A stretch of DNA of 32,354 nucleotides, taken from the IMG/VR virus record IMGVR_UViG_3300032265_002304, positions 1-32,354 of that record; one strand, given 5' to 3'. Both the position numbers and the translations under genes were made by a program. This stretch comes from a virus. Under the pieces are notes generated by a model, which ran no database searches, was not told the DNA's origin, and was given only the letters and a program-made list of their open reading frames with translations. Shown one piece after another: positions 2,664 through 5,816 of the stretch (position 1 is the stretch's first letter; every line of letters begins with the position of its first letter).

Positions 2664-4253
2664 CTATCTTATACCTCGGCGAGTTCTAAACATATCCATC
2701 ATTTTAGTTCCTGTTCCTTCTGCTTGTATCTGAGCTGCGGAAATAGTAGGAGTGCCACCATTCGTTACGTTTTGTGTAATAGATTGATTGAACATTTGTG
2801 CGTTGGGAGCTAACTTATTTGCCATAGCTTCAGTTTTATCATATGCTTCTTTTAATGTATCATATACCGCAGTTCCAAGTCCCGGTAGTAAATTAACAGT
2901 CTGAGGATTTGCGTCTGTGCCGAAATTAATTTCGCCTAACTTATCCATTTCCCCAACAATAAAATCCTTTGCATCAACTAATTTATCTACAATTGCCTTT
3001 TCCATTTTCTTTGGAAGATCTTCAAAATTCGTTAGCATATTTTTAATAGATTCATTCATCTTTTTAGTATAATCACCTAGTGTGTCGGTTTGTTTTTCTA
3101 AATCTTTTTCTTTTATTTCTTTATCTTTTTTCTCGTTTTCTGCGTCTATTTCTCCCGCCCTTGTCATAGGATCGGTAAAGAATTTTTTAATTTTATTTAA
3201 AGGATTTGATGGATCGTCCCATTTCAAAGGTCCACCACCGCCGTTTTCCTTATTTTTATTTAGTGTTTCTTGTTCTCCATCAGAAGTACCATATAACACG
3301 CTTCCCGCTAAAGCGCCTAGCCCCAATGCACCTAATATACCTGCTAATAATTTACCTTTACCGCCTGTGGCACCTTCGGGAACATATGCACCGGATCCAT
3401 TTTGTTTCAAAGTTCCCATGTCTCTAGGTTGTCTAGGGCCTTCAAGTTCTGGTAATCCATTTGGTCCTATTCTACCACCACCGGCTCTACCATTTTGATT
3501 TCTATTTCTTTCAACATCTCCTGCTCCTCCGCCCATTCCGCCAATTCTATTTAAACCCATTGCAGCGAGTAACATCTCTCCCAATGCCGTAACTGCTGCA
3601 ACTATTGCTGCACCTACAGATCCTAATGTTGTAATAATGCCTGTTAGAATGGGAACAACGATAGTACCTAAAAATGTTACTAGTAATGTACCACCTTGTA
3701 ATACTGTACTAATAAGACTAGATAAGAACCCTCCGCTTTTTTCGCCATCGCCTCCATTCTGAGAATCCTTTATTTCAATCCCCAATTTTTCCGCAATAGC
3801 CTTTGCGAGAAGCTCTCGTTCTCTTTTTCTAGGACCTTCTTCATTGGCTTGTCTTAGGAAATTAATATTTAAGGCAGTCGTTTCTGTTAACTCTCGTACC
3901 CTTGTTATCTCTTCCATCATCTTTTGTTGATATTTAGATGGGCCAAATAATTTGTTTATTGCAGATTTAAAAAATCCTGTAGATGAGGATTCGTCTTTAG
4001 TTTTGGATTTATTATCAGATTTATACTTTTCAAAATACTTTTGTATTGATGACATTCCTTGCTGGTTACCCTGAAAGAATTCTCTTTGCGAATTTCTTAT
4101 ATCTTTTCTTAGTTCAGAAAACTCTTTTCTCTGATCCATAATACTATCAGATAATTTATGTAACACTTTTGTTTGTGCAGATAAACTATCATTCTGAGTT
4201 TTTAGTGTATTGTGAATTAGTATATCACTTAGGGGATTTTGTGGTAGTGCCAT
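2664..4253 (-). CDS. Tape-measure-like tail protein (candidate functional equivalent of T4 gp29)
   Basis: A 529-residue protein, close to the length of T4 gp29 (590). The N-terminal 150 residues are helical and coiled-coil-like (QTKVLHKLSDSIMDQRKEF, then many Lys/Glu/Gln). A long hydrophobic stretch follows at about 176-233 (LISTVLQGGTLLVTFLGTIVV, continuing Ala/Gly-rich). Then come a Gly/Asn/Arg-rich linker, a second hydrophobic segment at 301-321 (LLAGILGALGLGALAG) and another charged helical region. Helical arms with internal hydrophobic segments are typical of tape-measure proteins. The context agrees: it lies directly downstream of gp26 and the gp51-like frame, which are hub and chaperone functions, as lambda H follows G/GT. 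No direct sequence match to T4 gp29 is evident to me, so the role is inferred from layout, size and composition. Confidence 0.6.
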   Translation of the reverse strand: MALPQNPLSDILIHNTLKTQNDSLSAQTKVLHKLSDSIMDQRKEFSELRKDIRNSQREFFQGNQQGMSSIQKYFEKYKSDNKSKTKDESSSTGFFKSAINKLFGPSKYQQKMMEEITRVRELTETTALNINFLRQANEEGPRKRERELLAKAIAEKLGIEIKDSQNGGDGEKSGGFLSSLISTVLQGGTLLVTFLGTIVVPILTGIITTLGSVGAAIVAAVTALGEMLLAAMGLNRIGGMGGGAGDVERNRNQNGRAGGGRIGPNGLPELEGPRQPRDMGTLKQNGSGAYVPEGATGGKGKLLAGILGALGLGALAGSVLYGTSDGEQETLNKNKENGGGGPLKWDDPSNPLNKIKKFFTDPMTRAGEIDAENEKKDKEIKEKDLEKQTDTLGDYTKKMNESIKNMLTNFEDLPKKMEKAIVDKLVDAKDFIVGEMDKLGEINFGTDANPQTVNLLPGLGTAVYDTLKEAYDKTEAMANKLAPNAQMFNQSITQNVTNGGTPTISAAQIQAEGTGTKMMDMFRTRRGIR

Positions 4254-4256
4254 ATC

Positions 4257-4463
4257 TTACTTCTGTTGTTTTGCTCTTAGTTTTTCATTCTCTTCATTAA
4301 TGTGATTAATTAACATAGTAACGTAAATATCTCTTTCCCACGGTAGCATATTTTCTATATCAGATAATGAGTAATTATGATTATTCATTAATGAGAAATT
4401 AAGCTGATAATAATTAAGGAGTCCTTCGTGCGAAAGAGTTAGACGAAAAAATTCTGAAGACCC
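4257..4463 (-). CDS. 51: gp51-like segment in the -1 frame of gp26 (frameshift product)
   Basis: This open frame runs on the minus strand from a TGA at 4466-4464 to the TAA at 4259-4257. Downstream of the gp26 stop it encodes about 60 residues of convincing protein, with LSHEGLLNYYQLNFSLM followed by NYSLSDIENMLPWERDIYV, ending in a Lys/Gln-rich helix. It resembles the short gp51-type baseplate hub assembly proteins of cyanophage-like T4 relatives. There is no ATG, GTG or TTG before an internal ATG at 4388, which would discard the conserved-looking first part and lacks a Shine-Dalgarno sequence. The simplest reading is that it is translated as a C-terminal extension of gp26 after a -1 frameshift at 4451-4445, giving a fusion of about 291 residues (229 from gp26 plus 62). 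A short 43-residue product from 4388 is the alternative. Confidence 0.72.
   Translation of the reverse strand, partial: GSSEFFRLTLSHEGLLNYYQLNFSLMNNHNYSLSDIENMLPWERDIYVTMLINHINEENEKLRAKQQK
4422..4451 (-). other. Candidate programmed -1 ribosomal frameshift site (gp26 to gp51)
   Basis: On the minus strand the gp26 frame reads AAT TTT TTC GTC TAA. T TTT TTC (4451-4445) is a canonical X XXY YYZ slippery heptamer two codons before the stop. After a 7-nt spacer (4444-4438), TCTTTC (4437-4432) pairs with GAAGGA (4427-4422) around a GCAC loop: 6 bp with one G-T wobble. Slipping back one base makes the next codons CGT CTA ACT, which open directly into the gp51-like frame. Heptamer, spacer and stimulator all sit where expected. 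The stem is short, so efficiency may be low, or a larger fold may add to it. Confidence 0.72.
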
Positions 4464-5131
4464 TCAAGATTTAATTCATTATGTGCTCCGCATTCGGAAC
4501 AATCTTGTTCTACATGCTGTACTACTTTTGGCATAGTTAAAAAGAAAGTTTCTAATAAACCAAACTGTGCTTTTGAAAATCCGTTAACAAATTCTACCAA
4601 TTCTTCCTTAGTGTAGTCATCATATAATTGTTCATCGGTATATACATTCCTGATACAATCGCATAACAATTCTACAACACTTTCAGATTTAAAATTATTA
4701 TATATCTTTAACATTTCCTCAAATTTAGGATAGCGCATTTCTAATCCAATGTTATCCGATATTAGAATTTTTGTGGTATGCTCAGGATCTTTTTTAACTT
4801 CAGCTTTAGTTATATCAAGATCAAATTTAATCTTATTCTCGCAATTATTACATTGTAGTGTTAGGTTTGCCGTTTCGCCTACAGACTTTGCTCTTAGATT
4901 TAAAAAGATATATTCTATATCAAAATTTGGTAAATCGTCCATCTTTAATTTATTGAATGTACAAACATCTACAAGATCCACAATTATTCTGTGTATCTCT
5001 TCTCCGTCCGATTCTAATGCTGTTAATAAAATTTTATATTCTTTTACTAAGAATGGTCTGTATTTGATTTTTTCCCCGGTTGATGGTAAGATCAATTCAT
5101 ATGTTGGGGTTTCTAATTTTGGTAATGCCAT
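4439..5131 (-). CDS. 26: gp26-like baseplate hub assembly protein
   Basis: A 230-residue protein (T4 gp26 is 208) of the T4 baseplate-protein family. It shows the typical start (LETPTYELILPSTGEKIKYRPF) and two CxxC pairs (Cys94/Cys97 in LQCNNCE and Cys211/Cys214 in DCSECGAHN) that look like a split zinc ribbon. It also has the helical middle with EEMLKIYNNF. In T4, gp26 works with gp51 in assembly of the central baseplate hub. An AGGAA motif sits about 8 nt before the ATG on the minus strand. The last codons form a slippery heptamer, so I infer two products: gp26 alone and a gp26-gp51 fusion. It lies between the tube protein and the tape-measure-like gene in the minus-strand late operon. Confidence 0.85.
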   Translation of the reverse strand: MALPKLETPTYELILPSTGEKIKYRPFLVKEYKILLTALESDGEEIHRIIVDLVDVCTFNKLKMDDLPNFDIEYIFLNLRAKSVGETANLTLQCNNCENKIKFDLDITKAEVKKDPEHTTKILISDNIGLEMRYPKFEEMLKIYNNFKSESVVELLCDCIRNVYTDEQLYDDYTKEELVEFVNGFSKAQFGLLETFFLTMPKVVQHVEQDCSECGAHNELNLEGLQNFFV

Positions 5132-5147
5132 GATTTAATTCCTATAA

Positions 5148-5816
5148 TTAAAATGCTTGTTTTGTAAGTCGGTTAAAATTTCCTGTTGCAGATTCGGCAG
5201 GTGTTGCTTCAGTGTCAATCATTGAGCCATTTCTAATAGTATCGTATGGATATAATTTATCATTTAATCCACCCGCATGGTTAGGAATAGCTTTTCTATA
5301 AACAAAGTTTACAGATAATTTGTGCAGGCTGTTTTGACTGCTGTTATTGACTTCTAATAAATTATATGATTTTGGAAATGCATCAGTCAATAATATAGAA
5401 TATGTTGTTTCGTTTTTCTCATTCAATTGATAAATTCCAATATCTGTCACATAATCACTTTGATAATTTACGTTATAGTTTACAGGATTTATAACTATTG
5501 CCATCCAGCAATCAAAAAACGCTTTAATGTCCATTTGTTGATCCATTAAAAATGTCATTGCCATTCCATCGCCACCATAATCTATTGTAGATGGTCTTTG
5601 ATACGCGGGACCATATATTCGTTGTTGTTTAACCCCTATACCTATAGGAGGTAAACTTGCGGATTCGCAAAATAAACTAACTAAGTTTATATTTCTAAAT
5701 CTTGCATTTTCTAATATTTTTGCAGGAGTATTAATGAAAACTTCAAATCTATTTTGTTTAGCAACGCCTCGCGTTCTAACTTCTGTTTGAAATTTGCTTA
5801 GTGAAAAGTATGACAT
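5148..5816 (-). CDS. 54: Tail-tube-fold protein, probable gp54 baseplate tube initiator
   Basis: A 222-residue protein with the conserved layout of the gp19/gp54-type tube proteins of T4-like phages. It has an N-terminal helix and NRFEVFI strand, then FCESASLPPIGI, then the QRIYGPAYQRPSTIDYGG block, the KAFFDCWM helix, and TDIGIYQLNE followed by LLTDAFPKSYNL. In T4, gp54 sits on gp48 and nucleates polymerisation of the gp19 tube; its core is homologous to gp19. The gene is shorter than T4 gp54 (320). Its place in the baseplate operon, close to gp48 and gp26 rather than next to a sheath gene, favours gp54 over the main tube protein gp19. The fold call is firm; the gp54 versus gp19 assignment is less so. 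Confidence 0.68.
   Translation of the reverse strand: MSYFSLSKFQTEVRTRGVAKQNRFEVFINTPAKILENARFRNINLVSLFCESASLPPIGIGVKQQRIYGPAYQRPSTIDYGGDGMAMTFLMDQQMDIKAFFDCWMAIVINPVNYNVNYQSDYVTDIGIYQLNEKNETTYSILLTDAFPKSYNLLEVNNSSQNSLHKLSVNFVYRKAIPNHAGGLNDKLYPYDTIRNGSMIDTEATPAESATGNFNRLTKQAF

Follow-up and report, generated by a model that had tools for sequence, protein, structure and literature searches.

A single gene at the gp26/gp51 locus of a T4-like myophage very probably makes short and long tail assembly chaperones through a −1 frameshift

The DNA analysed here, referred to as the window, is an IMG/VR virus record 32,354 bases long. On its minus strand it carries a tail tube gene, the gp26–51 locus and a long ORF, in that order. 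The upstream neighbour (5148..5816) encodes a 222-aa tail tube protein (phrog_45 tail tube, E 6e-31). The gp26-like gene (4439..5131) encodes a 230-aa protein with the C-terminus ...EGLQNFFV*, a putative short tail assembly chaperone. PF12322 (T4_baseplate) matches this protein over its whole length (residues 9–229, E 2e-60), and phrog_150 ('baseplate hub') matches it with E 4e-64. Directly after gp51 lies a 529-aa ORF (2664..4253) with a hydrophobic, Gly/Ala-rich middle. Searches of Pfam, PHROGs and NCBIfam gave no convincing family match for this ORF; its position and length make it a candidate tape measure protein.

The 3' end of the window gp26 reads CAG AAT TTT TTC GTC TAA. It contains the slippery heptamer T TTT TTC (4445..4451, minus strand) in the gp26 phase, at which a −1 slip pairs TTT TTT. 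One codon (GTC) separates the heptamer from the TAA stop of gp26 (4439..4441, minus strand), which is reached only without a shift, and the spacer following the heptamer is GTCTAAC (4444–4438, minus strand). An open −1 frame runs from 4463 to a stop at 4259–4257 and encodes the C-terminal tail of gp51 (4257..4445, minus strand, 62 aa plus stop), which is matched by phrog_634 ('baseplate hub assembly catalyst', gp51) with E 2.4e-25. No ATG, GTG or TTG was found in this frame ahead of the conserved part of gp51. The products predicted from the reading frames are gp26 of 230 aa and a gp26–gp51 fusion of 291 aa, with a common N-terminus. An earlier reading made from the sequence only (the sequence-only reading) had described the heptamer, a 7-nt spacer, the position of a stem, products of 230 and 291 aa, and a gp51-like −1 frame without a start of its own. 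Its coordinates and lengths were all correct, and the missing start was borne out.

Taken alone, the heptamer in the window gene is within chance. When synonymous codons of the window gp26 were shuffled, 57% of trials placed a T6 heptamer in phase within the last 8 codons, as gp26 ends in Phe-Phe and prefers TTT. Only across relatives does the heptamer lie far beyond chance. A protein search in IMG/VR, together with phage records, gathered 276 loci, and a gp51 profile (HMM) was run over all three frames downstream of gp26, with 263 loci usable. The gp51 domain lay in the −1 frame at 261 of these 263. One of the two exceptions was L036, which has lost the junction to a deletion; in the other, Vibrio phage K445, the tail could be seen by eye in the −1 frame. 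The deletion in L036, an IMG/VR relative, lies at about 3069, where it removes the last part of gp26 together with the beginning of the gp51 tail; it may represent an assembly fault or a defective copy.

Heptamers were counted in 82 non-redundant genes (<80% identity). T TTT TTN was present within the last 11 codons in 77 of the 82 genes, and exactly 3 nt before the stop in 66, compared with 9 occurrences in 18,728 codons elsewhere in the same genes. All 77 genes whose protein ends in F[FL] contained it. The second codon of the heptamer was TTC in 65 genes, TTT in 8, TTA in 3 and TTG in 1. The first Phe codon was TTT in 77/77, versus 67% elsewhere, and the preceding codon always ended in T (naive log10 P −23, overstated because the genes are related). 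The site is thus an X XXY YYZ heptamer that is conserved and in phase within the overlap, as defines canonical −1 programmed frameshifting.

Examination of the −1 frame showed no gp51 start codon in 43 of the 82 genes, including that of the window. KVP40-like phages, phiM7, phiM9 and Yut2 contain an ATG overlapping the gp26 stop or just after it, which the window lacks; judging by the sequence, a separate gp51 start is possible in these lineages. The heptamer stays conserved even in lineages having an ATG. In the window's clade, the −1 tail frame had a pN/pS of 0.21, versus 1.18 and 2.94 for the other two frames, which contained stops in all sequences. The −1 frame downstream of the junction is under purifying selection, and invariant or near-invariant residues were found over 76 gp51 tails. 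The sequence-only reading had proposed a −1 frameshift fusing gp26 to gp51, to be checked by comparing junctions of related phages. The comparison returned both the −1 offset and the heptamer, and the proposal is supported by these and by selection on the −1 frame. The results further support the view that the slip in this T4-type 'baseplate' gene is ancient and widespread, spanning cyanophage-like viruses as well as Aeh1 and KVP40-type phages.

Profile comparisons related the frameshift gene to the two T4 proteins. In T4-type gp51, the alignment with the frameshift gp26 took in residues 7–201 and broke off at the slip site (E 5e-16), and that with the −1 gp51 tail took in residues 206–253 (hhalign, E 3e-9). 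The frameshift gp26 was also matched by T4 gp26 (E 9e-31), which in turn aligned with T4 gp51 (E 3e-17), and phrog_150 covers positions 3–248 of T4 gp51 and reaches the end of T4 gp26. Because gp51 aligns end to end with the fusion and gp26 with the short form, T4 hard-wires the pair as two genes, gp51 corresponding to the fused form and gp26 to the short form. A natural control is provided by gp26 of RB55 (T4) and Kc304, which keep Phe-Phe but encode it as TTC TTT, so that the heptamer is abolished with the protein unchanged. In a maximum-likelihood tree, T4 gp26 and T4 gp51 formed a group that excludes all frameshift genes (98/94), the pattern that a duplication in the T4 line should leave. 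Because this tree has long branches and no root, the order of events rests on distribution. The frameshift form is used by Aeh1, KVP40-type phages and P19 (also filed under Straboviridae), and the simplest reading of the sequences would be an ancestral slip, then duplication in the T4 line.

The fold of the products was modelled with AlphaFold2, which gave a pLDDT of 90.9 for the window gp26 and predicted the gp51 tail as three helices (pLDDT 84.5). In a VIA-align comparison (995 aligned chains), the best PDB chains for the gp26 model were 3fgx (Z 7.7), 2ob9 (HK97 gp13, Z 7.4) and 3klu (Z 7.0), with the next at 4.2; these matches are confined to gp26 residues 1–93, and a Z below 8 alone may reflect a common arrangement and is no proof by itself. 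All three chains are described as tail assembly chaperones (PMC9603447). Foldseek with the gp26 model matched viral gp26 relatives, and gave no match in the PDB at E below 0.18. The PDB sequence search with the gp26 and gp51 profiles gave no match at E below 0.09, and the NCBIfam search nothing above cut-off. The sequence-only reading had likened the pair to the lambda gpG/gpGT tail chaperones, a likeness upheld by the short and long forms with their T4 homology and by the chaperone fold match. By sequence, model and analogy, gp26 and gp26–gp51 would constitute a tail assembly chaperone pair of the gpG/gpGT type.

Several other explanations of the locus were weighed. The gp51 tail could be translated on its own, as a small protein whose start lies in the overlap or which arises when ribosomes re-initiate at the gp26 stop. 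GenBank annotators wrote it so for several cyanophages; records such as those of S-PM2, phiM7, PVA8 and phiM9 annotate a separate gp51 of about 53–59 codons, and some lineages have the ATG at the gp26 stop described above. We consider this very unlikely, given that this frame offers no ATG, GTG or TTG in the window or in 42 other representatives, that the heptamer is conserved even where an ATG exists, and that T4 carries the same two domains fused. Homopolymer runs are error-prone, and a single gene copy would leave open that the T run was wrongly sequenced or assembled and hides one long frame. The same offset recurs, however, in 261 loci drawn from complete isolate genomes and numerous separate assemblies, with a frame-0 stop codon at the run or just after it, and the base after the six T varies by lineage (C, T, A or G). 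This breadth of conservation refutes such an error, whose probability is negligible. Little more credible is a chance slippery motif at a dead junction with a decaying gp51 remnant: the frequency of the motif among shuffles of the window gene would allow it, but the low pN/pS of the tail, its invariant or near-invariant residues and the conservation of the site across phage families speak against it, and selection on the tail refutes a decaying remnant.

The remaining alternative accepts the frameshift and takes its products to be parts of the baseplate hub rather than tape-measure chaperones. The family names (PF12322, phrog_150, phrog_634) say baseplate hub, and a T4 review cites some genetic work placing gp26 in the hub (PMC3004832). 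The table of the same review, however, gives hub assembly chaperone as the role of gp26 and gp51, and gp51 as absent from the particle (PMC3004832); the gp26 model fold matches tail assembly chaperones, and Vladimirov et al. 2022 assign gp26/gp51 as tail assembly chaperones, as their title and the papers citing them indicate. We therefore regard hub parts as unlikely, though less so than the alternatives above.

Our preferred reading, which we hold with high confidence, is that one gene at the gp26/gp51 locus of this T4-like myophage makes a short and a long tail assembly chaperone. It is based on the reading frame, conservation of the site, selection, T4 homology and fold, all computed, and from these we infer slippage in the cell and its rate, production of the long form and the chaperone role. 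The majority of ribosomes would finish gp26 at its stop, while a minority would move back by one base at U UUU UUC, with tRNA-Phe on UUU and UUC, and continue through the gp51 tail to give the 291-residue gp26–gp51 protein. The fixed ratio of the two products proposed in the sequence-only reading is not supported. By analogy with lambda gpG/gpGT, both forms would coat the tape measure through their common N-terminal domain, and the long form would recruit tail-tube subunits with its helical tail. T4 makes the two forms from two genes, gp26 as the short form and gp51 as a hard-wired fusion.

Possible stimulators were sought on both sides of the slip. The sequence-only reading had pointed to a 6-bp stem-loop downstream (4422..4437, minus strand), with arms TCTTTC (4437–4432) and GAAGGA (4427–4422) and the loop GCAC. 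Its energy of −4.5 kcal/mol (z −0.59 versus shuffles) is weak and non-significant, 11 of 17 distinct relatives cannot form its outer pair, and pair counts over the 17 showed no compensatory change at any pair. Folding, shuffles and pair counts thus leave this stem unsupported as a stimulator in the window's clade, and the earlier suggestion is not retained. A pairing between upstream and downstream sequence in an 86-nt fold (z 0.12) was also dropped. Family-wide, 55-nt stretches starting +2 to +12 nt past the heptamer fold better than shuffles, with a mean z of −1.38 at +6 versus about −0.2 at most other offsets; the window itself is non-significant. In S-PM2 (L217 2212–2275), a 14-bp stem (z −3.84) starts about 9 nt past the heptamer, and strong stems after the heptamer occur also in its relatives L219, L215, L253 and L251, and are absent from the window's clade. 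Upstream, a Shine-Dalgarno-like GAGGG (4461..4465, minus strand) lies 9 nt before the window heptamer and may act as a stimulator. Similar cores (GAGG/GGAG) cluster 8–11 nt upstream of the heptamer across relatives, and a conserved Glu codon, placed five codons ahead of the first Phe, is GAG in 34/49, versus 28% elsewhere (naive p 3e-9). These sequence patterns make the Shine-Dalgarno-like element and the family-wide downstream folding suggestive as stimulators.

A variant arrangement was observed in the Ackermannviridae (L084 4740–4930, L085 4720–4880, L179–L196, and L277, which is CBA120). Their gp26 genes keep the gp51 tail (DFHLIFEIDLLSYFVMCDEL...) in the −1 frame, where it is often unannotated. 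At the junction, ATTTTCAT[T/C]TAA, no XXXYYYZ heptamer was found, and only a U UUC tetramer lies just before the stop. Upstream of the first in-frame ATG, the tail had a pN/pS of 0.21 versus about 0.95 for the other frames (12 codons), a mark of purifying selection. The Ackermannviridae may shift at the U UUC tetramer or by some other route; that they make the same chaperone pair by an unusual −1 shift is a tentative reading of their sequences, to which we give somewhat less than even chances. If it is true, one gene family would have three routes to the short/long pair, namely a classic heptamer, a non-canonical slip and gene duplication.

The sequence-only reading had known of no description of such a frameshift for T4-type gp26/51, which does not hold in the light of the literature. 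Papers citing Vladimirov, Gautam & Davidson 2022 (Virology 566:9-15) indicate that this work identified the tail assembly chaperone genes of T4-like phages (PMC12846349, PMC10885494), and one quotes from it poly-T slippery sites in the short chaperone genes (PMC12846349). The other describes an alternative in T4, a short gene accompanied by a fused one (PMC10885494), and the present profile comparison confirms this two-gene arrangement. As far as these citing papers convey it, the slip-made gp26/gp51 pair had already been reported for other T4-like phages, and the window is a further case. Sullivan et al. 2010 had noted that the N-terminal ~200 residues of T4 gp51 have no counterpart in cyanophage gp51, and that gp51 is missing in Aeh1 (PMC3037559). 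Contrary to the latter, Aeh1 (L090 1441–2384) does have the gp51 tail, which follows the TTTTTTC of gp26 in the −1 frame. In the isolate records examined, the two frames are never joined; gp51 is given separately or omitted, the latter in the records of S-PRM1, Aeh1, P19, T751, phiEa2809 and CBA120. The long chaperone therefore appears to have been missed by annotation in many T4-like genomes.

The window was compared with the closest known systems. As in lambda gpG/gpGT, it has short and long forms with a common N-terminus and a −1 slip close to the end of the first frame, in a gene adjoining that of the tail tube. The slippery site of lambda is G GGA AAG, unlike the T6 heptamer of the window. 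Lambda gpG/gpGT and other tail assembly chaperones were reportedly treated by Xu, Hendrix and Duda in 2004. The N-terminal fold of the window gp26 model resembles that of HK97 gp13; unlike HK97 gp13, the window protein is about twice as long and has two Cys-pair motifs, and it has no sequence match to the chaperones of the PDB. By its description, the locus of phage Adele (Vandenendeviridae/Andersonviridae) is similar, in that a conserved T-rich stretch close to the end of its short chaperone gene has been proposed as the site of a −1 shift, but its motif is GTTTTT and the phage families are different (PMC12846349). The short gp51 tail of the window is the same as the cyanophage gp51 of Sullivan et al. 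2010, whose account makes no mention of a frameshift (PMC3037559). With the T4-like chaperones of Vladimirov et al. 2022, as the citing papers show them, the window shares the protein family and the short/long pair. Unlike T4 itself, which has two genes, the window uses the slip, and T4, the textbook phage, would be the exception in which two genes have replaced it.
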